From Symmachiella dynata (GTDB lineage: Bacteria > Planctomycetota > Planctomycetia > Planctomycetales > Planctomycetaceae), in assembly GCF_007747995.1 (NCBI RefSeq), contig NZ_CP036276.1, positions 7,492,001-7,556,000 on the forward strand: DNA of 64,000 nt, in the 5' to 3' direction. Each line of letters begins with the position of its first letter. The stretch's first letter is position 1. Under the pieces are notes generated by a model. That model was given only the letters and a program-made list of their open reading frames with translations, did no database searches and had not been told where the DNA came from. Shown here piece by piece: positions 16,517-42,871 of this stretch. Both the position numbers and the translations under genes were made by a program.

Positions 16517-17839
16517 ATGGCTCTCTCCCCCAACCGCAACATGAAATTTGAAGCTCTCGAAGATCGCCGCGTGATGACCGCCAATGTCGACATCGACTTG
16601 GACGACGGCATCCTCACAATCGAAGGGACTGACGAAAACGACATCGTCGAAATCACCTACGAATACGACGACGGCCAGATCGATGAAGTGGTGGTCACCG
16701 TCTACGACGAAGATGGCGACGTGATCAAGGATCGCGACTACAACGTCGAGGACGTCAACTGGATTGTGGCCAACCTGGGTGCCGGCAACGACGGAATCGT
16801 CAACAACACCGACATCAACATGAATGCCAACGGTGGAGCGGGGAACGACACACTCGTCGGTGGAACGCAAGCGGACAACCTGTTCGGCGGCGACGGCAAC
16901 GACATCTTAAGCGGCAACGACGGAAACGATTACTTAAACGGCCAGGCGGGCAACGACACGATTTATGGAGGGAACGGCAACGACCAACTCTATGGCGAAG
17001 CCGGTAATGACCTGCTCTTCGGCCAGGACGGAAACGACAATCTCCGCGGGGGTGACGGCTTCGACATGATGTACGGCGAAGCGGGCAATGATACCCTCCG
17101 CGGCGACGACGGGAACGACTTCCTCAATGGAGGAGCGGGCAATGACTACATGTACGGCAATGACGGGAACGACCGGATGTATGGCGGAGACGGCAACGAT
17201 CGCATGTACGGCGGTATCGGCGGCGACTTGATGTATGGTCAGGATGGATTCGATTCGCTGTACGGCGAAGCGGGCAGCGATTCATTGTACGGCGGCGATG
17301 ACAACGACCGGCTCGACGGTGGAGCAGACCGCGACTTCATGTATGGCGATGCCGGCAACGACGTGTTGCTAGGCGGAACCGGCAACGACTACATGCGTGG
17401 CGGAGACGGCAACGATTCCATCTGGGGTCAAGACGGGGCCGACAGCATCTACGGTGACAACGGGAACGACCAACTGGTCGGCAATGCAGGCGACGATTAC
17501 ATGCGGGGCGGCAACGGGAACGACCGTATGTGGGGCAGTAACGGTAACGATCGCATCTACGGGGATGCCGGGAATGATTACCTCTACGGAGGGAACGACA
17601 ACGACTACATCAATGGCGGACTCGGAGCCGATCGCCTATACGGCCAAAACGGCAACGACACGTTGGATGGCGGTTACGACGCGAGCAACTACGACTGGCT
17701 GTACGGCGGAGCGGGTGCGGACAATCTGCGTCAAAACCTGAAGCGGATTAATCCCAACGCCTACTACTACATCTCGACGGCCTACTTGATGGACTACGCA
17801 TCGGGTGAAGACACGATTTCCTATAGCTACTTCGGCTAG
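16517..17839 (+). CDS. RTX (hemolysin-type calcium-binding repeat) protein
   Basis: 440 residues. It starts with a short non-hydrophobic leader containing MKFEALEDRRVMTA, the LE-x-R-type motif common at the N-terminus of large planctomycete extracellular proteins. From about residue 105 to 395 it is almost entirely GGxGxDxLxG nonapeptide repeats (such as GGDGNDILSG, GGNGNDQLYG), which fold into a calcium-binding parallel beta-roll. A Tyr-rich tail follows. No enzymatic domain is present, so it is likely a structural or surface protein. RTX proteins are usually exported by type I secretion, but no exporter is in the window. Confidence 0.93.
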   Translation: MALSPNRNMKFEALEDRRVMTANVDIDLDDGILTIEGTDENDIVEITYEYDDGQIDEVVVTVYDEDGDVIKDRDYNVEDVNWIVANLGAGNDGIVNNTDINMNANGGAGNDTLVGGTQADNLFGGDGNDILSGNDGNDYLNGQAGNDTIYGGNGNDQLYGEAGNDLLFGQDGNDNLRGGDGFDMMYGEAGNDTLRGDDGNDFLNGGAGNDYMYGNDGNDRMYGGDGNDRMYGGIGGDLMYGQDGFDSLYGEAGSDSLYGGDDNDRLDGGADRDFMYGDAGNDVLLGGTGNDYMRGGDGNDSIWGQDGADSIYGDNGNDQLVGNAGDDYMRGGNGNDRMWGSNGNDRIYGDAGNDYLYGGNDNDYINGGLGADRLYGQNGNDTLDGGYDASNYDWLYGGAGADNLRQNLKRINPNAYYYISTAYLMDYASGEDTISYSYFG

Positions 17840-25699: not shown

Positions 25700-25885
25700 C
25701 ACTCGACATTGCCCAAACGTCAATGTTGACTCTGCCCGGTAATTTGCAGAATCGCTCCGGTTTCGCCGGTTTCTAGTAGAACCTCGTCCACGGTTTGTTT
25801 AACGTGTTCTTGGAACTCCGTGCGCCTGCGCGGACTCAATTCACATTTAATTTCCCTTAGGATGACTCTCAAGGAGTTTGATCAC

Positions 25886-26617
25886 ATGGCGGAGGCAACG
25901 ACTACAGTGCAACAGGATGACATTATCGCGCGGCTGAAATTGAGCGGGGCATGGTTTGCAGCTGCAGCCGAGTTGGAATTTGAAGGTCTCATCAGCAAAG
26001 TCGCTGCCGACGAAGGAGTGGCAGTCAGCGATGATGAATTGCAAAGCGAATTCGACGCGTTTCGCGCTGATTTGGACCTGTTCAAGGCCGAAGAAACCAA
26101 CGCTTGGCTGGCCGATTCCGGTATCACCGTCGAGCAGGTTGAAGCGATGCTTGAATCCAATATCTTGCAGGCCAAATTGGCGGACAAACTGATCGACGAC
26201 GCACAGATCGATGCGCACTACAACCAAAACCCAGCCGCGTTCGACTATGCAGAAATCAGCCAACTGGTCGTCGACAACTCCGGTGCCGCTGGAGAATTGG
26301 CGCTGAGCATTCGCGAAGAAGGTGAAGATTTCGCCGCCTTGGCTGCTGAGCACTCGCTGGATGATTCGACCAGTTCCGATGGGGGCTACTTGGGACTGAT
26401 TTCTCGTGAAGAAGCGGGCGGACTGCCGGGCGACATCGCCGATCGGATTTTTGCTGCTTCTGAGTCCGAAGTGATTGGTCCCTTCGAAGTGCCGGGCGGC
26501 GGTCATCTGATCATCCGTGTCGAAGAAGTCGGCAAACACGAATTAGACGATGACCTGCGGGCTGTCTTGCGGGGCCAGTTGTTCGATGCACACATGGCCC
26601 AATTGGCTGACAATTAA
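25886..26617 (+). CDS. PpiC/SurA-like peptidyl-prolyl isomerase (foldase)
   Basis: 243 residues from ATG 25886, with AAGGAG nine bases upstream. No signal peptide, so cytoplasmic as annotated. Residues ~10-110 form a SurA-N-like helical chaperone region (LKLSGAWFAAAAELEFEGLI, then VAVSDDELQSEFDAFR). Residues ~125-225 form a parvulin domain (AEISQLVV, FAALAAEHSLDDSTSSDGG, YLGLISREEAGGLPGDIADR, GPFEVPGGGHLIIRVEE). Leaderless proteins of this plan are known beside peptide maturation and export systems. The three leader-bearing His/Gly-rich peptides just downstream make them candidate clients, but there is a 361 bp gap and a separate promoter between them. Confidence 0.87.
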   Translation: MAEATTTVQQDDIIARLKLSGAWFAAAAELEFEGLISKVAADEGVAVSDDELQSEFDAFRADLDLFKAEETNAWLADSGITVEQVEAMLESNILQAKLADKLIDDAQIDAHYNQNPAAFDYAEISQLVVDNSGAAGELALSIREEGEDFAALAAEHSLDDSTSSDGGYLGLISREEAGGLPGDIADRIFAASESEVIGPFEVPGGGHLIIRVEEVGKHELDDDLRAVLRGQLFDAHMAQLADN

Positions 26618-26978: not shown

Positions 26979-27275
26979 ATGTCATGCGTCAAGATTGAGG
27001 ATCTGTCCGTCGAGCGAACTTTGGAAGAGAGTGAAACCAACGACATTGTCGGTGCCGGTGGATTCGCCGTGCACACCGGTCCTTACGGCGGGGGTGTACG
27101 TTGGAACGGCGGTAGCATCTATTGGGGTAACGGCGGACGATACCGTCGTCCTTGGGGTGGACACCGCGGTGGACATCGGGGTGGTTACTGGGGCGGGCCT
27201 CATCGTGGCGGACACGGTGGCAGACACGGCGGCCGACACGGTGGTGGACATCACCATGGCAGACGTCGTCCTTAA
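26979..27275 (+). CDS. His/Gly-rich peptide 1 with double-glycine-type leader
   Basis: 98 residues. Leader 1-26 is MSCVKIEDLSVERTLEESET followed by NDIVGA. Counting back from a cut after Ala26, it has Leu at -12, Glu at -8, Ile at -4 and Gly-Ala at -2/-1, the pattern of double-glycine export leaders. The core (27-98) begins GGFAVHTGPYGGG and is made of Gly, His, Arg, Trp and Tyr, with GGH repeats and an RRRP end. It resembles a metal-binding or modified peptide. Its own GGAG site and the sigma54-type promoter at 26874 precede it. Peptide 2 is a close paralogue. Confidence 0.8.
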   Translation: MSCVKIEDLSVERTLEESETNDIVGAGGFAVHTGPYGGGVRWNGGSIYWGNGGRYRRPWGGHRGGHRGGYWGGPHRGGHGGRHGGRHGGGHHHGRRRP

Positions 27276-27294
27276 TCGACATCCGGCAACAGAC

Positions 27295-27335
27295 AGGACA
27301 AGGCGTGCCGAATCCTACGATTCGGTGACGCCCTC
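27295..27335 (+). terminator. hairpin between peptide genes 1 and 2 (no T run)
   Basis: GGCGTGCCGAATC pairs with GATTCGGTGACGCC across a 4-base loop (roughly 27301-27331). There is no T tract after it, so it may be a processing or stabilising hairpin that sets relative levels of the peptides rather than a true terminator. Confidence 0.35.
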
Positions 27336-27436
27336 CTGAAGCCGCTTGTCATTTTGCTTCATGATCGCAGAGCGGTTACTGATTCCACGAAACGTTTTAC
27401 AAAAAACCACAACACGTACTTGGGGAGAAACAACTG

Positions 27437-27787
27437 ATGTCACGCGTCAAAATTGAAGACTTGTCCGTCGAGCGTACTTTGGAAGAGAGTGAAACCAGCG
27501 ACATCGTCGGTGCCGGTGGATTCGCCGTGCACACCGGCCCCTACGGCGGGGGCGTGCATTGGAATGGTGGAAGCGTCCATTGGGGTGGCGGCGGATATTA
27601 TCGCCGACCCTGGGGTGGACATCATGGCGGACATTGGGGTGGCCATCACGGCGGCCATCACGGCGGACACTGGGGCGGTCATCGTGGTGGACACCGAGGC
27701 GGTCACTGGGGTGGACATCGCGGTGGACATCGCGGAGGTCACGGTGGTGGACATCATCACCATGGTGGAGGGCGTCGTCGACCCTAA
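27437..27787 (+). CDS. His/Gly-rich peptide 2 with double-glycine-type leader
   Basis: 116 residues. Leader MSRVKIEDLSVERTLEESET plus SDIVGA differs from that of peptide 1 at only two positions. The core opens the same way (GGFAVHTGPYGGGVHWNGG), then YYRRPW, then a long run of GGH-x units (GGHHGGHWGGHHGGHH and more) with about 20 histidines, ending in HHHHGGGRRRP. The array length differs from peptide 1, as expected if the repeats expand and contract. It has a GGGAG ribosome-binding site and a strong terminator follows. The high His content argues for copper, nickel or zinc binding, unproven. Confidence 0.82.
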   Translation: MSRVKIEDLSVERTLEESETSDIVGAGGFAVHTGPYGGGVHWNGGSVHWGGGGYYRRPWGGHHGGHWGGHHGGHHGGHWGGHRGGHRGGHWGGHRGGHRGGHGGGHHHHGGGRRRP

Positions 27788-27815
27788 ACCGTAATTTCAG
27801 GTTTCAATCAGAATT

Positions 27816-27855
27816 GGGCGTGCCGAGGTTTCATAACCTAGGGGCGCCCTTTTTT
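27816..27855 (+). terminator. rho-independent terminator after peptide 2
   Basis: A 15 bp stem (GGGCGTGCCGAGGTT / AACCTAGGGGCGCCC, imperfect in the middle) with a TCAT loop and six T residues. It lies 28 bases after the peptide 2 stop, so peptide 3 probably has its own promoter or depends on read-through. Confidence 0.85.
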
Positions 27856-27959
27856 ACCCCTTGAGCGAATTTGCTTCTCCGCTTGAGAACTTTTGGGAAA
27901 CGATATTTAAGATCGTTTTGACAATTCACGACAGACGTTTTTTTTCGGGAGAAAGAATT

Positions 27960-28244
27960 ATGTCACGCGTAAAAATCGAAGACTTGTCCGTCGAACGCAC
28001 TATGGACGAAGGCGAAACCAACGACATTGTCGGTGCTGGGCATCACGGTCATGGACATCATCATCATGGTGGCCATCGTCGGCGCGGTGGTTGGGGCCCC
28101 CGTGGTGGATATTATCGTCGTCCGCGATATCACGATACCAGCCACTTTCACTATCAGCCGGGTGGTTATGTGCCGCACGGCAACCACTACCACTATGTGC
28201 CGGGTCATTACCGCCTGCATCGCCAGGGGCATTGGCACTACTAG
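27960..28244 (+). CDS. His/Tyr-rich peptide 3 with the same leader
   Basis: 94 residues from ATG 27960, with GGGAG nine bases upstream; a longer frame from 27861 lacks the leader start. Leader MSRVKIEDLSVERTMDEGET plus NDIVGA is conserved with peptides 1 and 2 (Met for Leu at -12). The core is quite different: GHHGHGHHHHGGHRRRGG, then RGGYYRRPRYHDTS and a Tyr/His-rich tail (NHYHYVPGHYRLHRQGHWHY). A constant leader on a divergent core is what families of exported or enzyme-modified peptides show. A weak hairpin follows at 28295. Confidence 0.8.
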   Translation: MSRVKIEDLSVERTMDEGETNDIVGAGHHGHGHHHHGGHRRRGGWGPRGGYYRRPRYHDTSHFHYQPGGYVPHGNHYHYVPGHYRLHRQGHWHY

Positions 28245-28611: not shown

Positions 28612-28866
28612 ATGCTAAGATCTGTTTTTTGCTCCGTAGGGCTGTTTGTCCTGCTCTGGGGGGCCGCGTTTCTGATGATTGACAAAGTGACGCTGAATAT
28701 GGAGGAAGCCCCCGGTGCTCGGAGCGGATTCCGCGGTATGTTCAGCAGTGTGGGTATCAAACAAAAGCGAGAGTTCGACCCGCCGGAATGGGCCGCATTC
28801 AGTTTGATGTCGGTGGGAACCGTCACAATGCTGTACTCCGTGGCCTTGCCGAAAAAACCTGGTTAA
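28612..28866 (+). CDS. small two-helix membrane protein, unknown
   Basis: 84 residues. A first helix (about 3-23, VFCSVGLFVLLWGAAFLMI) is followed by a soluble loop (EEAPGARSGFRGMFSSVGIK) and a second helix (about 62-80, AAFSLMSVGTVTMLYSVAL). The ribosome-binding site AGGTCCTTGAA is moderate. I do not recognise the family with certainty; the composition and clean helices support a real gene. No operon partner is visible. Confidence 0.6.
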   Translation: MLRSVFCSVGLFVLLWGAAFLMIDKVTLNMEEAPGARSGFRGMFSSVGIKQKREFDPPEWAAFSLMSVGTVTMLYSVALPKKPG

Positions 28867-29076: not shown

Positions 29077-29607
29077 CTACTCGTGTTGTGAATCCGGACC
29101 AGCGTATTTGTTGCCGCGCCAATCCCATTGGCCAGTCGGATACACTTTGGTAAAGGAGTCTGAACCGTCGTGGTAATAGACTTCGAACGTCTCCCGATCG
29201 TCAGCGACCCAGTAGCCATGTGAAATCAGGGCGTCTCGATTCGCGCGCCCATGAGCAGGCAAGTCGCTTGGAAACGGCGGTCCCTCCTCCGCAAGTGCCG
29301 AATACGTTTGGGTCAGGTATTGCTTGGTCGCATTCATGCGGTATGCAGTCCCGATGAATGGAATCGGCGCTACGAATAAGGCGGCGATCACGAGGGCGAC
29401 AAGGTAATTGCGGACTGCAACTTGCCGCATAATTCCGGCAATGGCGCCTCCGAAACAAGCAACCGTGAACACGAAACCGCAGATTGCGAGATTAGCGAGA
29501 GCGTAACCTTTGTCGTGAACAGTAGCGAAAGTGTGCCGCCAGGCCAAAATTGCAAATGTCGCCGTTGCAACACCCAGGATCATGCTGCCGATGATGTGTC
29601 GACGCAT
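29077..29607 (-). CDS. membrane protein with soluble C-terminal domain, unknown
   Basis: 176 residues from ATG 29607; a TTG at 29625 would add six. Three hydrophobic helices (about 5-24, 35-58 and 68-90) lead to a soluble C-terminal region with a helix (NATKQYLTQTYSALAEEG) and a Trp/Tyr/Gly-rich end (GQWDWRGNKYAG). Family not recognised. Its terminator is at 29033. It is transcribed away from pabA/trpG, with ~210 bases between starts. Confidence 0.65.
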   Translation of the reverse strand: MRRHIIGSMILGVATATFAILAWRHTFATVHDKGYALANLAICGFVFTVACFGGAIAGIMRQVAVRNYLVALVIAALFVAPIPFIGTAYRMNATKQYLTQTYSALAEEGPPFPSDLPAHGRANRDALISHGYWVADDRETFEVYYHDGSDSFTKVYPTGQWDWRGNKYAGPDSQHE

Positions 29608-29818
29608 AGCTTTATTTCTCGCCAAATACTGGAAGAGGATTGTCCTTGTTCACCGGGCCTCCTCAAGCGATATTATTATCCCTGCCCAGTAGATGCCTTT
29701 GCCACTAGTGGTCTCCCCCTGCGGATGTTAGCATAAATGAGCACCGGCAAATTTGAAAATAGCCGGTGGTTCTCTAAACATCGTAGCGATATTTTCGCCC
29801 CTCGTCCGACGCACAGCA

Positions 29819-34664: not shown

Positions 34665-35399
34665 TTACGGTGTGGGCAGGGCCATGGGGATTGCGACGGT
34701 CGGGCTGTCGCAGACGGGGCAATGGTCGGTGGCGGGTTGGTCCCAGTAGCCGGTTCCCCGATACACGGCTGATACGCCGGTCAGGATGACGCAGACAGCG
34801 GCGATCTTGAGCAAGCGGGTCCGTGCGGCGACGCTGAGCGCGGTTGCACCGGCACCGGTCAGCACCATGATCGGTATCGTGCCGGCGCCAAAAACAGCCA
34901 TCAGTGCCATTCCGCCGGACATGGTTCCCAAGCTGGCAGCGAGGGCCAGAAATGCGTAGACCAATCCGCACGGGAGGAAGCCGGTGAGCAAACCGGCGAT
35001 GAAGACATTCCAAAGTCCGGGTGCCGTCAAGAATGATCCAAAGAATGAACGGGCCAAACAGGTCGCGCTCTTGGTGTGCGATTTTCTCCAGACCGGGAGC
35101 CAACCGGCGGAATGAAACCCTTGGACGACGAGCAACACGCCGGCCACGATTGAGAGTATCGCCTGCACATTCACCAATCCGCTGTCGGAGTGGTTCAACC
35201 GCACGCCGAGAAATCCGACCACCGCACCGGCGAATGTGTAGGTGAAAATTCGGCCCAGGCTATAAATCAACTGTCGGCCGAGATTGTTTCTCCAGCTTGT
35301 CGCTCCCATGCCAATCGACAGCGCAAACCCCCCGCACATGCCGACGCAGTGCGACGAGCCTAAGAATCCCGCCAGAAATATCAGCGGCCATTCCATCAT
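34665..35399 (-). CDS. TauE/SafE-like (DsbD-type) membrane protein of the cbb3 cluster
   Basis: 244 residues from ATG 35399, which overlaps the TGA of the preceding gene. Six or so membrane helices; the first carries FLGSSHCVGMCGGF, and a second half-repeat has TGFLPCGLVYAFLALA. Members with HCVGMCGG are regularly found in cbb3 oxidase clusters beside the copper ATPase and are thought to help with copper or haem delivery. A C-terminal Cys pair (DHCPVCDSP) may bind metal. Last gene of the oxidase cluster. Confidence 0.85.
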   Translation of the reverse strand: MMEWPLIFLAGFLGSSHCVGMCGGFALSIGMGATSWRNNLGRQLIYSLGRIFTYTFAGAVVGFLGVRLNHSDSGLVNVQAILSIVAGVLLVVQGFHSAGWLPVWRKSHTKSATCLARSFFGSFLTAPGLWNVFIAGLLTGFLPCGLVYAFLALAASLGTMSGGMALMAVFGAGTIPIMVLTGAGATALSVAARTRLLKIAAVCVILTGVSAVYRGTGYWDQPATDHCPVCDSPTVAIPMALPTP

Positions 35400-35845
35400 C
35401 CGTAGGACTGCTCCCGTGTAATTTCTAGGCAGGCATTTCGCGACTGGAGTTGTGCCGACTCGAATTCTGGTTTCTGAATCATAACCCACGCGGCAAACAC
35501 AAATCCGCCGACAATATGCAGCAGCACGATTAACAGGCCCACACCGACGATCGTCTGAATTCCATCATCCATGCGCTTCTTGGAACGAGAGAACTTGGTC
35601 GAGATCACGCCGCACACCCAACCCCAATGCATCATGACGTGCAATAAAATGCCAAGCCCCAAGGCGCACAAGATTCCGAATTGAATGCTCAACCAATGGC
35701 CATAGGTCGCTCCCCAGAGCAGCCAGCCGTTGGCGTTGGCCGGTGGAGGAAACACGAATTGGGTGATCGCAGAGACAGCGGCCAGGCAGAGGAACAGCAC
35801 CATCAACAATGTGTCGAGCCAGAAGTTAAAAATCGTCTTGGACAT
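35396..35845 (-). CDS. membrane protein with conserved His, DUF4405-like, cbb3 cluster
   Basis: 149 residues with three or four helices. His residues in WGATYGHWLSIQ, LLHVMMHWGWVCG and LLHIVGGF have the spacing of di-haem b-type membrane cytochromes (DUF4405/cytochrome b561-like). It could relay electrons or help assemble the oxidase. It overlaps the downstream SafE-like gene by 4 bases and lies 60 bases after the copper ATPase stop. The haem role is an inference from the His pattern. Confidence 0.75.
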   Translation of the reverse strand: MSKTIFNFWLDTLLMVLFLCLAAVSAITQFVFPPPANANGWLLWGATYGHWLSIQFGILCALGLGILLHVMMHWGWVCGVISTKFSRSKKRMDDGIQTIVGVGLLIVLLHIVGGFVFAAWVMIQKPEFESAQLQSRNACLEITREQSYG

Positions 35846-35905
35846 GTGATTTGTGTATCAGTTGTTTTGAAAGTGATATTGGGTTCTCGCTGTGGAGGAA
35901 CCGGT

Positions 35906-38122
35906 TTATACGGGCGTCATTGCCTTTTCGGGCATGGGACCGGTCGGCGTATCGTCGGCCAAAGCAGCGTCCTGAATTGCCCCATAAGCGACCTGTGATG
36001 ATGAGTGATCACCGCCACTTGGGGATGCCGCGTAGTTGAGACGCAAGGAATTCGTAATCACGAAAAAACTACTCCCGGCCATTAACACGGCGGCCCAGGC
36101 GGGGTTTAAGAGGCCGCAGCAGGCCAGCCCGACTCCCACCGTATTGTACCCGACCGCCCAGGCGAGGTTCTGCCGGATGATGCGGACAGTTTGCCGCGAC
36201 AGTTGTAGGATCCAAGGAATACTGGCCAAATCATCGCCCAGCAAGCAGACAGCGGCCGCCTCGCGCGACACATCAGCGCCGCAGCCCAAGGCAATGCCCA
36301 CATCGGATGCGGCCAAGGCGGGTGCGTCGTTGATTCCATCGCCGACCATGGCGACCGGACCGATGTCTCGCTGGGCGGCGGTGATGGCGGCGACCTTGTC
36401 TTCCGGCAGGAGTTCGGCTTGTACGTTGAGCGACAGTTGTTGCGACAACGTTTGCCCACGCGCTGCGTGATCCCCGGTGAGCACGCCGACATCGAGTCCT
36501 TGACTGGCAAGTGCTGCAACCACTTGTCGAGCATTTAAGCGCAAGGATTCGTCGAAAAGAAACACGCCGCGAATCTCTCCCCCCCAACCGACGTAGGTCA
36601 TCGGAGCATCGTTTTGATTCGTGTTGCGAATTTGCTCCTCCAGCGAGGCGCTCAGCGTCAGTCCCCGCTCAAGCAGGAAGCGCAAGCTGCCCAGATAGCA
36701 ATCGCTGTCCGAGGCATCAATGCGGCCCACGACTCCGCGTCCGGCCAGGGATTGAATGCGATCCTGGGCATGCGGTGTGGAATTCACGTTGGCGAATTCA
36801 ATGATTGCTGCGCTCAGCGCGTGTGTGGACGATGCGGCAAGAATGGCGGCGCGGTGCAGTATGAGTTCCCGGTCCCCTGCGTAAAGGAATTTTGAAACCG
36901 GCAGGCAACCGGTCGTCAAGGTGCCGGTCTTGTCGAAGCGAATCGCCCGCACGCCGGCGAGTTGTTCCATCGCCATTCCACTGCGAAACAACACATGCGC
37001 TCGCGCTGCTGTTCCCATGGCCGCCCAGACCGCCAACGGCGTCGCCAGGCCCAGCGCGCAAGGACAGGCGATCAAGACAACTGACAACCCCGCCAGCAAA
37101 CCACGGTCCCAGGAATAACTGAGTCCGTGATAGAGACAGGCTGCCGTTGCCACGACGATCATCACCGGAAAAAACCAACCTGACAAGGTATCAGCCAAGC
37201 GTTGATACCGCCCTTTGCTGAGCCGGGCTTGGCGAACGAATTCAATCAGTCGGCTCAATGTGCCGACGCCCGCCGGCGATGTGACTGCGATCAAGACATC
37301 ACCATCCAGGTTGAGCGTTCCTCCCAACACGGAGTCGCCAACCTGTTTTTCCACAGGGCGGACTTCACCGGTCAGCACCTGTTCGTCGACCGAAGTTTCA
37401 TTTTGCAGAAGACGGCCATCCACGGGAAAACGCTCACCCGGCAGAACGCGCAGCGCGTCATTGATGGCGACTTCGGACACCGGGACGGTCCGCACTTCAC
37501 CGTTGTGGATCAGACGCACGGTTTCGGGGATCAGTTTCTCCAGGGCGTCTAAAGCGGTGGTGGCTTTCAGACGTCCGGCCGCCTCCAGCCACCGTCCCAG
37601 GGTGACCATTACCAGCACCATGCAGCCGACTTCGAAATAGACGTGCCCTTCTCCGCGAAACACCGAAACGCCGGAATAAAGGTAAGCAGCCGCCACGCCT
37701 GTGACCAGTAGCAAATCGGTCGACAAGACACGGCGCTGTAGATTGTCGAGGGCGTTTTCTGCCAGCGGGATGCCCAGCAAGAAAAGCACCGGTAATGCGC
37801 AAATCAGACAGATGTAGCGGAACAGGTCGGCCAGTGATCCGGCCAATGGTTCGCTGGGATTGACATCGTAAACGTCGTAGGTCCACAGCGCCATGGTAAA
37901 GACCATCACGTTCATCGTGAAGAAGATGGCGACCCCCAGTCGGGTCAGCGTCCAGCGCACCGCTCCCTCGTCGTTGCGTTCCTGCGTGACTGCAGCGGCA
38001 AATCGACAGCCGAAACAACAATAGCGCGGCTCAGTGTCGTCCTCCTCCGGCCGGTGCGAGCCCCACCAAGGATCCGGAACGGGCAGTCCACAAAACTCGC
38101 AGGCGTTCCGAGGATCGGTCAT
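35906..38122 (-). CDS. ccoI: copper-transporting P1B-type ATPase, CcoI-like
   Basis: 738 residues from ATG 38122, overlapping the upstream stop by 4 bases. The N-terminus has Cys8-x2-Cys11 and Cys35-Cys36-x2-Cys39 (YCCFGCRF), the metal-binding domain typical of CcoI-type pumps; no classical HMA domain follows. The CPC metal channel is at 353-355 ([12 protein letters not shown]), the phosphorylation site Asp397 in RFDKTGTLT, and the hinge in [11 protein letters not shown]. About eight membrane helices. In cbb3 clusters this pump exports copper to the periplasm for the CuB centre of CcoN. Its location fits. Confidence 0.94.
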
Positions 38123-38316
38123 GGCGGCGAGAGCACTTCCGTCTGCATGTTCGGCAGAAAATAGGTGACGGCGTAGTACACGATGAAACACCAAAACAGC
38201 ACCCAAAGCAACCGCACATACCAGGGGATGGCATTGCCGGTGTAATGGTGATAGCGCTGTTCTTGTTCGACGGATTTATCGGGAAGTTCGACGGATTTAT
38301 TGGGAAGGTCGGACAT
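38119..38316 (-). CDS. small single-pass membrane protein of the cbb3 cluster
   Basis: 65 residues from ATG 38316 (AGGAAG six bases upstream). The soluble N-terminus contains a near-exact duplication ([14 protein letters not shown]), encoded by a 21-base tandem repeat. The motif [19 protein letters not shown] then leads into one helix, ending in YFLPNMQTE. Its position between ccoO and ccoI is that of the CcoQ/CcoH-type small subunits, but the sequence is not close to either. Probably an assembly or stability factor. Confidence 0.75.
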
Positions 38317-38326
38317 GCTCAACTTC

Positions 38327-38668
38327 CTAAGTCAGATTGTGATCCGGAGCATTTGCGATTGGGGTATGCTGCTGTTGTGCTTCGTCTAGGCGTTGTTCGG
38401 TCTGCAGCATCGTATACTTGGGGCGTTCGACGTCTGTAAACATCCCTTGCGCCATACCCCAGCACAGCAGACAGAAAAACCCCAACCCGGCCAGCAAGTA
38501 GTTCATGATCGGCGAAATCGCGAATACGCCGTCGGAACTGCTGCGGAACAAGGCAATGAATTCAATGAACTTGGTTCCAAAGCCCCACAAACTGGGGACG
38601 AGAATCACCACGGCCAGTATGCAGGTGATGATGAATTGTCGCCGGGAGTTCGTACCTGTTGATTTCAT
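38327..38668 (-). CDS. two-helix membrane protein of the cbb3 cluster
   Basis: 113 residues. Helices at about 10-32 (FIITCILAVVILVPSLWGFG) and 53-76 (MNYLLAGLGFFCLLCWGMAQ) flank a loop ending in SPIMNY. The C-terminal tail is soluble. The start overlaps the ccoO stop by 4 bases. I do not know a named family; conservation of position within the oxidase cluster argues for a structural or assembly role. Confidence 0.75.
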   Translation of the reverse strand: MKSTGTNSRRQFIITCILAVVILVPSLWGFGTKFIEFIALFRSSSDGVFAISPIMNYLLAGLGFFCLLCWGMAQGMFTDVERPKYTMLQTEQRLDEAQQQHTPIANAPDHNLT

Positions 38669-39360
38669 GATTCGTCCTCCTCTTCCTCTTCGACCACGAT
38701 CTCCGGAGCCGGTTCGTATTGCTCATACATAGGATAGCTTTCCAGCCACGATCCGAGCCATTGGACGTAAGTGATGATGGCCAGACCACGACGGGTGGGA
38801 CGATCGGGCGAGCCGTCGAAAAACCAGGGATATTCCGGCATCGGTGAATTTTCCGAAAGATCGCGCGGCCGAAAGAAATGTACCGCATGCCAATCGTTGG
38901 AGCGCCGGCCCCCTTCGCGGGACAAATCGGGACCGACACGCCGCGTGCCGAACATCACCGGCATCTGCAGCACGTTTTGATACTCTTCTTGTTTGGAAAC
39001 CGGTCCCCAGCGTTCCTCTTCGTTCGAGACCGGACGGATAAACTGGCTGTGGCAGTGCCAACACCCTTCGCCAACATAGAGTTTGCGTCCCAGCAGCAGT
39101 GCCTCGGCGCACTTTTCGTTCAGCCAGGCGTCTTGATCCGCGATGTCTTTGGGCGGTTCCCCGTAAGCGGCCTTGAATGATTCGGGATACCGCGCGGCGA
39201 GATCTTCGAATTGGTACCGCAGGTTTCCATTCACCAATCCTTCGACCGGCGTCGGTTCTTCTTGGTACATCAACACCGGCACAACTGCGTTGGAGACAAA
39301 CGCAATTCCGAAAAAGAAAAGGCCGGCAATGAGCAAAACGCCCGATTTGCTTTCAAACAT
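38665..39360 (-). CDS. ccoO: cbb3-type cytochrome c oxidase subunit II (CcoO-like)
   Basis: 231 residues. One N-terminal anchor helix (about 8-30) is followed by a monohaem cytochrome c domain. The haem-binding motif is Cys100-x2-Cys103-His104 in GEGCWHCHSQFIRPVSNEE, the CcoO/FixO signature. A candidate axial Met lies in SPMPEYPW. The acidic tail EEEEEDES is unusual. It passes electrons from the CcoP-like cytochrome to CcoN. The gene follows ccoN after 79 bases. Confidence 0.94.
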   Translation of the reverse strand: MFESKSGVLLIAGLFFFGIAFVSNAVVPVLMYQEEPTPVEGLVNGNLRYQFEDLAARYPESFKAAYGEPPKDIADQDAWLNEKCAEALLLGRKLYVGEGCWHCHSQFIRPVSNEEERWGPVSKQEEYQNVLQMPVMFGTRRVGPDLSREGGRRSNDWHAVHFFRPRDLSENSPMPEYPWFFDGSPDRPTRRGLAIITYVQWLGSWLESYPMYEQYEPAPEIVVEEEEEDES

Positions 39361-39439
39361 TTCCTAGCTAGTCCTTCACACGGGAAGTCACACCACGGCC
39401 GTCATATAAAACCGGGATTTTGTTAGGGTCTGATTCCAA

Positions 39440-40819
39440 CTATGCCGTTTGCGTCTTTGCAGACTGCAACGTTTTGCGGAGGTTATACAACAACACCAAT
39501 TGACCGGCGAACATTCCTAAGCCGGCAAAGACACGCAACGTCCAAAATGGGAATGAAGCAGTAATAGAAGCATCCCACGGCTGTAACGACGCCCAAAAGT
39601 AACCTTGGAACAATCCCGCCAACGTCAGATCGCCAACCATGACCGTGAGGCTGACGGTAGAGAGCCAATAATGCCATTCGCACAGCTTGCGGCTATACCA
39701 TTCCACACCCAACAGGCGGGGGAACAGATAGGTCATGATGCCGAACAACCACATACTGAAGACGCCGAACATCACCATATGGGCATGGCCCACGACCCAG
39801 TCGGTAAAGTGAATGACCTGTTGAAAGGTCAACGTGGTTTGCATCGAGCATTGCAAACAGGTCAAAAAGTAAAACACCATGCCGGTATAAAAATAGCGCA
39901 CCGGAAGGTTCGTGACGACCATTCGTCCTGATCCTTTGAGCGTGCCGAAGAAGTTGATCACGACTGTGGTGACCACCAACTCAACGGCAACCGTCGACAT
40001 GATTGCCCCATACTGCAGGAACATGGGGATTGGCGTATACAGAAAGTGGTGGATGCCGTTGAGCGGATAGAAAAATGCCAGCCCCCAGAATCCGACCAGT
40101 GACAGTCCGTGACTCCAGATCGGCTTTTGCAACAAAATCGGCACAAAATAGTACATCAACCCCCAACCCAAGGGAGTCACGAACAGTCCCACCAAGTCAT
40201 GAATGAATAGGCCGCCCACCGCACCGGCGCTTGTGCCAGCGACGAAGTATTGGGGAACAAAGTTGCCCATCGCATAGGTCATGAATGTCCAGACAAATGC
40301 GGCCAAGAAGTACCACAAGGTGACATACATCGGCCCTTTGACCTGCAGAATGGGGGTCATGAAGTTAATCGCGACCAGCAACAGTCCCAGTTGTGCGGCC
40401 GGATCGATCCAGACCGGGGTTTCTCCCCATTCCAGCCCTTGTGCTTCGCCGAAAATAATCCCGACGGCTGTCGCGCCGACGACGAGTTGCCACGCGACAA
40501 AAATCGTGTAAGACAACCAGCGGCTTTGCACAGGTCGCAACGTCAACCGCGGCACAGACCAATGTAGCGCTCCTAAAAATGCGTTGGCCAAAAAACCGTA
40601 GGCGATGGCATTGGTATGCAGCATGCGCCACCGGCCGGGCGAGAGGAGCTCGATTCCGTTGAGGGGATTCCACTGCACCAATTGCAGCGCCATCAACAAA
40701 CCGGCCAGCATGGCAGCTGTCATAAACGTGAGCGCCGCGTAGAAATACCAACAGACCAGTTGCGTTTCCACCAGGGGCCCGCTGAACTCGGCTTCCTCGT
40801 GTTTTACCACCTCACTCAT
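39440..40819 (-). CDS. ccoN: cbb3-type cytochrome c oxidase catalytic subunit I (CcoN)
   Basis: 459 residues from ATG 40819, overlapping the upstream stop by 4 bases. About twelve helices. The expected ligands are present: His68 in MLHTNAIAYG (low-spin haem), His207 in LFIHDLVGLF, and His257-His258 in NGIHHFLYT (CuB). Tyr251, six residues before the His pair, matches the cross-linked Tyr of the cbb3 class. HFTDWVVGHAHMVMFG supplies the helix-X histidines. It reduces oxygen to water with high affinity. The Asp after His207, where most CcoN have Asn, is a small oddity. Confidence 0.95.
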   Translation of the reverse strand: MSEVVKHEEAEFSGPLVETQLVCWYFYAALTFMTAAMLAGLLMALQLVQWNPLNGIELLSPGRWRMLHTNAIAYGFLANAFLGALHWSVPRLTLRPVQSRWLSYTIFVAWQLVVGATAVGIIFGEAQGLEWGETPVWIDPAAQLGLLLVAINFMTPILQVKGPMYVTLWYFLAAFVWTFMTYAMGNFVPQYFVAGTSAGAVGGLFIHDLVGLFVTPLGWGLMYYFVPILLQKPIWSHGLSLVGFWGLAFFYPLNGIHHFLYTPIPMFLQYGAIMSTVAVELVVTTVVINFFGTLKGSGRMVVTNLPVRYFYTGMVFYFLTCLQCSMQTTLTFQQVIHFTDWVVGHAHMVMFGVFSMWLFGIMTYLFPRLLGVEWYSRKLCEWHYWLSTVSLTVMVGDLTLAGLFQGYFWASLQPWDASITASFPFWTLRVFAGLGMFAGQLVLLYNLRKTLQSAKTQTA

Positions 40820-41469
40820 GACTTCTCCGTCGGACGTTGATACGGAACGAACTGGCCCAGGGGATACAAGACCGCGATTGTTAGCCCAAACACAAGATGC
40901 GTGACCGCCGCCACCCACGGCGGAATCAATTCCACAATCCAATTCCCGCCGAATAGTGCCGGCTGTAGCCAGGACAAAATGGCGTAAAAATTAATCAACC
41001 AAACCACGATCGACAGGGCCGCCGCCACGCCGTATCGCATCAGGGTCGACGCATTTTGAGTGAGCCGGGTTAATGCAAGGTAAAACGGCACGCCTAACAA
41101 CATCCCCGTTGCCAAATACAAGCAACAGCCAATGGTCAGAATCAAGCCGTTGCTGACCGTGTAGACCTTCTGAGTCTGGTCAGCTAGCAGTAACGCCTTT
41201 TCACCCAGCGGAAAGGTGAGATAGACGCAAATCAATTCCAGCGGACTTTTGCCAACCAACGGTGCACTGATCACATTGACCAACAAACTCGTGGCGGCTC
41301 CGAAGATCCCCAACATGAATCCGCTGGTCGCATAGTAGGCGGTGTAATAGCCCGTCGGCTGCCACGGAACAGTCGTGTGGGACTGTTCAATTTCCGATTC
41401 GAGTCTTTCAACCCGTTCTTTGAGCTGTTGTAGCTCGGCTTGTTTTTCGTGATCGTCCATGGACGTCAT
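40816..41469 (-). CDS. membrane protein of the cbb3 cluster with N-terminal coiled coil
   Basis: 217 residues. A charged coiled coil (about 6-30, QAELQQLKERVERLESEIEQ) precedes four or five membrane helices with short loops (GFMLGIFGAATSLLVNVIS, GCCLYLATGMLLGVPFYLAL, AVTHLVFGLTIAVLYPLGQF). Not a known oxidase subunit by sequence, but it lies between the dihaem cytochrome and ccoN and overlaps ccoN by 4 bases. Probably anchors the peripheral cytochrome or assists assembly. A second ATG at 41460 is possible. Confidence 0.75.
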   Translation of the reverse strand: MTSMDDHEKQAELQQLKERVERLESEIEQSHTTVPWQPTGYYTAYYATSGFMLGIFGAATSLLVNVISAPLVGKSPLELICVYLTFPLGEKALLLADQTQKVYTVSNGLILTIGCCLYLATGMLLGVPFYLALTRLTQNASTLMRYGVAAALSIVVWLINFYAILSWLQPALFGGNWIVELIPPWVAAVTHLVFGLTIAVLYPLGQFVPYQRPTEKS

Positions 41470-41547
41470 GGCCTCAAAGTTTGGTGACCGGCCGGGCCGG
41501 ATTGTTCATTCCAGTGCAATCTGGTTTCAATCAGTGTTTGGCGTGTT

Positions 41548-42651
41548 CTATTCCTGCGATTGATCATCGGTTTGCGCGTCGTCTTCCTGTGTCCCTTGGG
41601 GATAAGGAGCAAACGTGAATTGGCCGACGGGGGGAACTTGTCCCGATCGCCGTTGTCCCGAGATTTGCAGCACATAGGCCACCAATTTCCAGACCAACTC
41701 GGGGTCCTCGCGTATCTTGGCCGATGTCCCAAACCCCGGCATCGGTGTGCCGTTGATGCCATTGAAGACCCGCCGGTAGACGTCCACCGGTTTCGATCCG
41801 CCGCGCAGCATGCCCGATGTCAAATCGGCCGCCCGGGCAGCGTGTCCCCACATATCTTTTAGCGGCGTTTCGACGTTGGCTGCCGTCTGGCCCCGGCCGT
41901 CGCTGCCGTGACAATTGGCACAGCCGACATCGGGACTGGTGAACAATTCCTTGCCGACAGCCACGTCCTCAGCGGTAAATTCGGGCAACGGCGTTAAGGG
42001 CATCACCTCGGTGAAATGTGCCATTTCCCAGCTCTCGTCGATATAATCCACCAATTCCTGGACGATCTCCGGATCGATTTCCGGCTCATCGGGGTCTGCT
42101 TCTTGTACCAGTTGCGATTCCAATTCGCCGCGCTTGGAAAGAGCGATCACATAGTCGACAACCGCTTCCAAGTCGGCTTTGGGGAGTCGCGCAAACGAGG
42201 GCATTGATGTTCCCGGAATGCCTCGTCGCAATGTATTCAGCAAGTCTTCGCGACGGGGCTTGGAACCGTAGGGGGTTGAAGTGAATTTGAAGATGCCTCG
42301 GCGGTAATCGCGCGGCAGGGGGTAAAGGTACTTTGCCTTGGGGCCGCGACCATCCCCACTGACGCCGTGACATTGCGAGCAGCGCTGCATATAAATTTCC
42401 ATGCCGTGCTGCAACTGCTTTGTGTCAAACGACTCATCACCTAGCATTTTGGGGACTTGCGGCGTTCCACTGTGTGTCCGCAATGCACCCCGAATTTGGA
42501 TGCGCAGCTTTGTATCGAGCTGACTTGTTTCATCGTTCAACTCAAAAACCGGCTCCGCTGCGCGCTCACAACCGCTGACCGCGACCAGCAGCGCAAGCAA
42601 CGAACCGGCCAGCAGTGCGGACCGCGAATTGGGTCGAAAGTTGATACTCAT
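41548..42651 (-). CDS. dihaem cytochrome c lipoprotein, CcoP-like
   Basis: 367 residues from ATG 42651; ATG 42660 and longer frames are open. A lipoprotein signal ends at SGC28 (LLALLVAVSGCERA). Two class I cytochrome c domains follow, with haem motifs at Cys91-x2-Cys94-His (RCSQCHGVSGDGRG) and Cys244-x2-Cys247-His (GCANCHGSDGRGQ). Axial Met candidates are in GTSMPSF and GTPMPGFG. It stands in for CcoP but has a lipid anchor instead of membrane helices. First gene of the cluster, with an FNR-like box ~140 bases upstream. Confidence 0.88.
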   Translation of the reverse strand: MSINFRPNSRSALLAGSLLALLVAVSGCERAAEPVFELNDETSQLDTKLRIQIRGALRTHSGTPQVPKMLGDESFDTKQLQHGMEIYMQRCSQCHGVSGDGRGPKAKYLYPLPRDYRRGIFKFTSTPYGSKPRREDLLNTLRRGIPGTSMPSFARLPKADLEAVVDYVIALSKRGELESQLVQEADPDEPEIDPEIVQELVDYIDESWEMAHFTEVMPLTPLPEFTAEDVAVGKELFTSPDVGCANCHGSDGRGQTAANVETPLKDMWGHAARAADLTSGMLRGGSKPVDVYRRVFNGINGTPMPGFGTSAKIREDPELVWKLVAYVLQISGQRRSGQVPPVGQFTFAPYPQGTQEDDAQTDDQSQE

Positions 42652-42789
42652 CAGTGACATCCGGCAAAAGTAATCAAGGCGGGGCATGCGGGATCGAACC
42701 GGTTGCGAGACTCGGTTCCGGCAATCGGTTGGCAGGGAGTCCCTGTCCCTCTGCGAGGCATTTTGAGGGGTTGTCGCCATTCGCTGCTG

Positions 42790-42803
42790 CCGATTTCGAT
42801 CAA
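42790..42803 (-). promoter_or_regulatory. FNR/CRP-type box upstream of the cbb3 cluster
   Basis: On the minus strand TTGATCGAAATCGG matches the FNR consensus TTGAT-N4-ATCAA at 8 of 10 positions (last two differ). It lies ~140 bases before the first cluster gene. Oxygen-responsive FNR/Anr-type control of cbb3 oxidases is well known elsewhere; here it is a single-site inference. Confidence 0.35.
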
Positions 42804-42871
42804 CCACGGTGCCTCCATTTCTATTCAGTCTGCTCATATGCGGACTCGTCGCAGGCCATAAAATTTAAAAA

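Follow-up and report, generated by a model that had tools for sequence, protein, structure and literature searches.

Tandem histidine-rich peptide precursors of Symmachiella dynata with a common double-glycine-type leader and their probable export by a distant cNMP-C39 exporter

For the substrates of peptidase-containing ABC transporters (PCATs) the leader consensus has been given as L(-12)xxxE(-8)L(-7)xxxxGG (PMC6959990), with Gly-Ala as a listed variant of the final pair (PMC6363468), and the Leu at -7 matters in LahT150 and PCAT1 according to the available portions of both papers (PMC6363468, PMC6959990). HetC of Nostoc PCC 7120 is a cNMP-C39-ABC exporter whose cNMP domain binds ppGpp in vitro and whose substrate is described as not known in the available text of PMC10986499. 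In the cyanobacterium Synechococcus elongatus, the EbfG1-4 proteins depend on the C39 transporter PteB for efficient secretion, and three of them, EbfG1-3, form amyloid, as described in the accessible sections of PMC4997328 and PMC9981879. Parvulins of family TIGR04500 have been recorded in RiPP clusters, and one of them, MirC, is encoded with a PCAT (PMC13097080, available portion). The pneumococcal protein PhtD binds Zn through three histidines of a triad and a glutamate (PMC3842936, available portion).

We analysed a stretch of 64,000 nucleotides of the planctomycete Symmachiella dynata (the window; contig NZ_CP036276.1, positions 7,492,001 to 7,556,000), in which three tandem genes encode small precursors. 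Like the PCAT substrates of LahT, PCAT1 and ComA, as far as these are covered by the sources consulted, the precursors have leaders with Leu at -12, Glu at -8, a hydrophobic residue at -4, Gly at -2 and Ala at -1. Unlike them, they have Thr at -7, a conserved IxIEDL start, His-rich cores and an exporter gene that is not adjacent. The nearest functional analogue appears to be EbfG1-4 with PteB, likewise tandem small double-glycine proteins and a C39 transporter; it differs in that no parvulin term occurs in the available text of PMC4997328.

The precursor locus and the exporter of the genome

The three adjacent genes encode a common leader of 26 residues, MS[CR]VKIEDLSVERT[LM][ED]E[SG]ET[NS]DIVGA, followed by unlike cores (Table 1), an arrangement noticed in an earlier sequence-only reading and confirmed here by sequence and codon comparison. 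All three have ATG starts with a GGAGA-type ribosome-binding sequence on the 5' side (read by eye); for precursor 3 the open reading frame list begins at TTG 27861, and it is the ATG at 27960 that carries the ribosome-binding sequence. Beyond the leader the precursors diverge, precursors 1 and 2 staying alike for about 20 residues further. Over leader codons 1-26, identical, synonymous and non-synonymous codons number 18/6/2 between paralogues 1 and 2, 12/10/4 between 1 and 3 and 15/7/4 between 2 and 3, and 23/3/0 and 22/4/0 when genes 1 and 2 are compared with their orthologues in the sister species G001. Since synonymous change predominates, the leader is conserved as a protein.

Table 1. 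Features of the precursor locus, in window coordinates
Feature	Coordinates	Strand	Description
Parvulin-type (PpiC) peptidyl-prolyl isomerase	25886..26617	+	Pfam Rotamase_2 1e-12
Precursor 1	26979..27275	+	98 aa: 26-aa leader + 72-aa Gly/His/Arg-rich core
Precursor 1 leader	26979..27056	+	Predicted C39 cut after Gly-Ala
Precursor 2	27437..27787	+	116 aa: 26-aa leader + 90-aa GGH-repeat core, 21 His
Precursor 2 leader	27437..27514	+	
Precursor 3	27960..28244	+	94 aa: 26-aa leader + 68-aa Tyr/His-rich core
Precursor 3 leader	27960..28037	+	
Conserved core domain of precursor 3 (residues 54-94)	28119..28241	+	In 38/120 same-family genomes
HxxHxH histidine triad (His73, His76, His78) in VPHGNHYHYVP	28176..28193	+	Columns conserved 29/30, 29/30, 26/30

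Counted back from the predicted cut, the residues are those previously claimed, with Leu or Met at -12 (Met in precursor 3), Glu at -8, Ile at -4, Gly at -2 and Ala at -1, and all three leaders agree with the PCAT consensus at these five positions (L, E, hydrophobic, G, G/A/S). The consensus Leu at -7, a position on which the earlier reading did not remark, is replaced by Thr in all three; in related leaders this position is Ala (G002, G014) or Leu, Met or Val (G032, G279, G311, G069). The cores had been called His-rich and Cys-free, and the mature parts of precursors 1, 2 and 3 do hold 10, 21 and 18 His and 0 Cys, together with 29, 40 and 15 Gly and net charges of +12, +9 and +8. Ser and Thr occur once in each core; Cys, Glu and Lys are absent, and Asp occurs at most once, the sole acidic residue being found in core 3.

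A leader model made from five planctomycete leaders outside the genus places the precursors at ranks 1-3 among the 792 open reading frames of the window (E values of 0.0006, 0.012 and 0.02). On the reversed window the best match of the same model has an E value of only 5.3, so the leader resemblance is not due to chance. No further leader copies were found in the S. dynata genome beyond these three in searches at E<=10 and E<=0.05. The precursors have no match in Pfam and one weak triad hit in NCBIfam, with nothing above cut-off; precursor 2 scanned over the genome_contigs collection gave 474 pattern stretches and no relative, and a promoter and terminator scan gave no excess over shuffles. 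The earlier suggestion that no described family has this leader stands as regards Pfam and NCBIfam models above cut-off, but the leader itself falls in the general double-glycine class. The leader protein of the planctomycete relative G311 exceeds the cut-off of TIGR01847 'bacteriocin_sig'. In the literature searched, mostly open-access, we found no paper joining this leader, cNMP-C39 and parvulin.

The parvulin encoded upstream of the peptides, for which an in-frame GTG at 25820 is a possible alternative start, has no signal peptide discernible by eye and is 66% identical to its counterpart in the same-genus genome G002. Its best NCBIfam model is TIGR04500 'putative peptide maturation system protein' (1.5e-19); unlike the MirC/TIGR04500 systems, as described in the available part of the literature, it scores 70.5 bits against a cut-off of 180, and no ATP-grasp synthetase is found among the neighbours scanned. 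It is of the type whose genes accompany those of cNMP-C39 exporters, and we propose that it acts as an export chaperone. The order quinoprotein, parvulin, peptides is kept in the same-genus genomes G001 and G002, in each of which two peptides were found. One of the G002 peptides is Gly/Trp/His-rich, and the other has a leader that truly ends in Gly-Gly (MSSLTINDLSVEQTLTEIEANQILGG), followed by a core resembling core 3. The small neighbours at 28612-28866 and 29077-29625, scanned for an immunity gene, gave no family match. Elsewhere in the window, positions 34665-42837, 6-15 kb downstream of the peptides, encode a P-type ATPase, a DsbD-like protein and cbb3-oxidase-like genes (the last by eye); a link between these genes and the His-rich peptides was considered and dropped, since the sister genome G002 has other genes there. 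An RTX calcium-binding repeat protein at 16517-17839, with 14 Pfam stretches, starts with a similar motif, FEALEDRRVMTA, without the leader.

Only one C39 domain in the genome lies above the family cut-off, and it belongs to a protein of 1069 residues encoded about 440 kb from the peptide genes, at roughly G000:C1:7076425-7079634; a second and a third C39-like match were dropped because, at 19 bits, they fall below the cut-off. By Pfam the protein combines two cNMP domains, C39, an ABC membrane domain (TMD) and an ATPase domain (NBD) in one chain, which is the HetC architecture, and it keeps the catalytic Gln/Cys/His/Asp, Walker A and LSGGQ. The C39 catalytic residues are intact in all ten C39 proteins inspected. 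The exporter is like HetC in its domain order, in its kept catalytic residues and in having no membrane-fusion gene recognised beside it, and unlike HetC in having two cNMP domains and in having candidate substrates that can be named, whereas none is reported near hetC in the available text of PMC10986499. No HlyD was recognised beside the exporter in G000 (the window genome), G001 or G002 (open reading frames by eye, and seven G000 neighbours by Pfam), and one HlyD query found none of the G014 type in these three genomes of the genus.

Core 3 and the exchange of export signals

The 41-residue domain of core 3 has matches at E<=0.001 at 48 places in 38 of the 120 same-family genomes. Thirty of the 48 places were fetched, and in 25 of these 30 loci the protein has a Sec signal peptide according to a simple rule of our own. 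Two of the five misses, L035 and L046, have frames that begin at a contig edge, and in L027 a Sec signal is visible by eye further along the frame. The remaining two are the window genome and G002, where a double-glycine-type leader stands in place of the Sec signal. No complete core 3 homologue outside the genus without a Sec signal is present among the 30 loci. No other single line of evidence speaks as strongly for an export function of the leader as this occurrence of Sec signals on homologues outside the genus and of the leader within it. Taken literally, the homologues do lack the leader, which the sequence-only reading would have counted against itself, but the Sec signal that they carry instead favours export. 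It seems that in this genus a secreted protein that probably binds metal has changed from Sec to another export route.

Nine of the 19 columns of the core 3 family that are at least 75% conserved are His, in an alignment where two of the 30 rows (L030, L039) are trimmed around another copy of the motif than the intended one, which lowers the conservation counts. The HxxHxH triad stands in the context VPHG[ND]HYHY[VI]P as in pneumococcal PhtD/PhtA, as far as these are described in the available source; unlike those proteins, core 3 matches over only 13-15 residues, and the likeness could be convergent. Against the PDB the 41-residue core matches PhtD with an E value of 2.4e-5 as a whole and 0.064 and 0.065 as fragments, the whole of precursor 3 giving 0.0094, 0.3 and 0.052 with the same entries. 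The score for the streptococcal histidine triad family stays below its cut-off (TIGR01363, 9.4 bits against 33). It is likely, judging from the conserved His array, that core 3 binds a metal such as zinc. The claim that the cores are metal-binding is therefore supported for core 3 and is only plausible for cores 1 and 2, polycations rich in Gly, His and Arg for which metal binding or a role as cell-surface or matrix material may be considered.

The leader, the parvulin and cNMP-C39 proteins in other genomes

Leader model A4, trained on leaders of G000, G002, G032, G014, G069, G279 and G311, matches 8 of 120 same-family genomes, a count that is not independent because A4 was trained on matched genomes and the G014 leader was found beside its exporter; G001, G115 and G120 did not contribute to the training, though each is the sister of a genome that did. 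The same eight genomes, from four genera, have a close parvulin (E<=1e-30), and a ninth parvulin match, in G015, is weak and partial (8.9e-10). A strong C39 is present in seven of the eight, compared with 15 of the 120 overall (p 8e-7); in G120, an assembly of 1340 contigs, leader and parvulin are present and there is no C39 at E<=1e-8. In the class set (297 genomes, model A3) all six genomes with a leader at E<=1.5e-4 have a C39 (E<=1e-20), compared with 27/297 (p 3e-7). When the weak partial leader matches of G146 (E 0.003) and G161 (0.001), which have no C39, are counted as misses, p is 8e-6. A cleaner test is provided by the four class-set leader genomes outside the training (G069, G279, G311, G313), for which p is 5.5e-5.

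The association is with a particular form of C39 protein. Among 39 C39 loci examined (15 from the family set at E<=1e-30 and 24 further from the class set), cNMP is fused to C39 in 11, ten of them in leader genomes. The 28 loci without cNMP are from genomes without a leader match, except for a second, 163-residue C39 of G313, and none of the 28 has a parvulin at E<=1e-6 within 1.5 kb. Fifteen weaker family-set C39 loci contain no cNMP, no leader and one parvulin-like open reading frame at 2e-10. The possibility that no leader-carrying genome has a C39 exporter is thus set aside, since 10 of 11 leader genomes have a cNMP-fused C39, and in six of those ten the fetched frames also have membrane and ATPase domains. 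The C39 protein of G032 and G115 has no membrane domain, and that of G279 and G313 has neither membrane nor ATPase domain; the presence of leader and C39 in a genome thus does not require a full exporter. The G032 and G115 proteins (L069/L070; two species of one genus) have the order cNMP-cNMP-C39-ATPase and are possibly soluble leader peptidases. The eleventh cNMP-C39, L138 of G286, is in a genome without a leader match and predicts an undetected substrate.

In some relatives the components are encoded together. In G014 (C542) two tandem peptides with MPIQILDLPEPEDLTAEEAAAVFGG leaders are followed by HlyD and then by a cNMP-C39-ABC exporter. In G313 (C91) a leader-bearing RTX-like protein, one open reading frame, a parvulin and cNMP-C39 all lie within 6 kb, and in G279 (C208) the parvulin adjoins cNMP-C39, with a leader-bearing protein about 5 kb on. 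These last two are the only ones of the 11 planctomycete cNMP-C39 loci with a parvulin within 1.5 kb. The remaining planctomycete leader genomes that were examined resemble the window genome in having the genes for leader peptide, parvulin and exporter at separate places. The leader-bearing proteins of G279 (L143:12158-13339) and G313 (L144:747-3311) are larger, with N-terminal LGAREMMDA or LESRELMAAS, one having RTX-like repeats by eye, which shows that proteins longer than the short peptides can bear the leader too. In G032 and G115 (L010/L149) a 75-aa leader peptide is encoded between a sigma-factor-like gene and an opposite-strand TolC-like gene (by eye).

Beyond the planctomycetes we considered 80 named cNMP-C39 loci (L151-L230), the best 80 of 547 alignment matches, which are not independent events because many are from Burkholderiales; one of them, L161, corresponds to G115, an uncultured Planctomycetaceae bacterium. 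Among these loci, genes for HlyD, a parvulin and cNMP-C39-ABC are grouped with open reading frames that carry leaders, often in Burkholderiales and sometimes in other phyla. The presence of cNMP and ABC in these loci is partly by construction of the search alignment. This does not apply to the parvulin: 53 of these best 80 of 547 have a close one (E<=1e-20) no more than 1.5 kb away. The planctomycete-only leader model matches 15 open reading frames in 10 of the best 80 at E<=0.02, and an iterated model, trained on matches in those same 80 loci, gives 126 matches in 49 of the best 80 at E<=0.01, with none on reversed DNA in either case. Several of the foreign leaders end in Gly-Ala as in the window, for example that of Cupriavidus L173. 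Five foreign leader proteins from the named loci were scanned and none passes a curated cut-off, that of L206 nearly reaching Pfam Bacteriocin_IIc (24.5 bits, cut-off 27.1). In the reverse direction, a model of 31 non-planctomycete leaders run over the 297 class genomes missed the window genome at E<=0.1. It matched 27 class genomes at this threshold, mostly partially, with full-length matches (1-27) only in G311, G279 and G069 and a nearly full-length one (4-27) in G071; within the window alone its best match is precursor 2 (E 0.027). The reverse search is weak, and the window leader thus joins the class through planctomycete intermediates.

Alternative readings and a model for export

The earlier reading had allowed for modified peptides, and the precursors could be RiPP precursors whose leader recruits a tailoring enzyme with the parvulin as its partner. 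The best NCBIfam model of the window parvulin is indeed the family given for MirC, which has such a role for the graspetide rosaritide in the available portion of PMC13097080, and an ATP-grasp target model gives weak hits, below its cut-off, to three of the eight leader proteins scanned from relatives and foreign loci. However, no tailoring enzyme was recognised among 13 window proteins or seven exporter neighbours scanned, and potentially reactive residues are scarce in the mature cores. Lanthionine, azole and graspetide chemistry needs residues that are absent or nearly so in them. We consider modification quite improbable and the cores probably unmodified. An antimicrobial role of bacteriocin or microcin type is also improbable, if a shade less so. 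A double-glycine-type leader on cationic Gly/His-rich cores would suit it, Gly/His-rich antimicrobial peptides with GGH repeats exist in plants, and the L206 protein comes close to a bacteriocin family, but the neighbours scanned include no recognisable immunity gene, and the Sec signals and nine conserved His columns of the core 3 family argue against it.

Extracellular matrix or adhesion proteins like EbfG1-4 would also be encoded as tandem small double-glycine-type proteins with low-complexity cores; this reading we rate as unlikely, though with a real chance of being correct, as the histidines kept in core 3 suggest a role with metal. The least probable alternative, to which we give very little weight, is that the proteins are cytosolic, with a leader that serves as a docking domain and stays uncleaved. 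It would account for the C39 proteins of G032/G115 and G279/G313 that are not part of a full exporter, but it is difficult to reconcile with the Sec signals on core 3 homologues and with the catalytic residues kept in the C39 proteins inspected.

We therefore regard it as probable that the products of the three genes are precursors of small secreted proteins, at least one of them metal-binding, that are exported in trans by the distant cNMP-C39 exporter. Export of the cores by a C39 exporter, as first proposed, is supported by the Sec-to-leader swap, by the co-occurrence with cNMP-C39 and by co-localisation in relatives, the exporter not being adjacent here. Other points that speak against it are the Thr at -7, the failure of the non-planctomycete leader model to recover the window genome, the negative outcome of the G014-type HlyD query, the small share of planctomycete cNMP-C39 loci with a nearby parvulin, the incomplete C39 proteins of G032/G115 and G279/G313, and the cases of G286 and G120. 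The sequences show the leader and its conservation, the exchange of export signals, the co-occurrence and the catalytic residues of the exporter, from which cleavage, route, chaperone role, gating and metal binding are inferred. In our model the 26-residue leader would dock on the C39 peptidase domain of the sole cNMP-cNMP-C39-TMD-NBD exporter of the genome and would be cut after Gly-Ala, and the core would cross the inner membrane and reach at least the periplasm. The parvulin would keep the precursors export-competent in the cytosol, and the cNMP domains would probably gate the exporter by a small ligand.

A broader reading, which we offer as possible rather than probable, is that a module found across several phyla, consisting of a nucleotide-sensing cNMP-C39 exporter, a cytosolic parvulin as export chaperone, often HlyD, and small cargo proteins with MxxIxIxDL...GG/GA leaders, took over the export of a zinc-binding histidine-triad protein from Sec in this genus, and so may have put metal-handling surface proteins under the control of a small intracellular signal. 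The swap represents a natural experiment, with related cargo and two export signals in one family, and makes the role of the leader testable in one step. For exporters of the HetC type the present analysis supplies candidate substrates, a putative chaperone and a motif for the leader, and it connects these exporters with loci in several further phyla. A pathway usually discussed for bacteriocins and signals would also gain metal-binding proteins.
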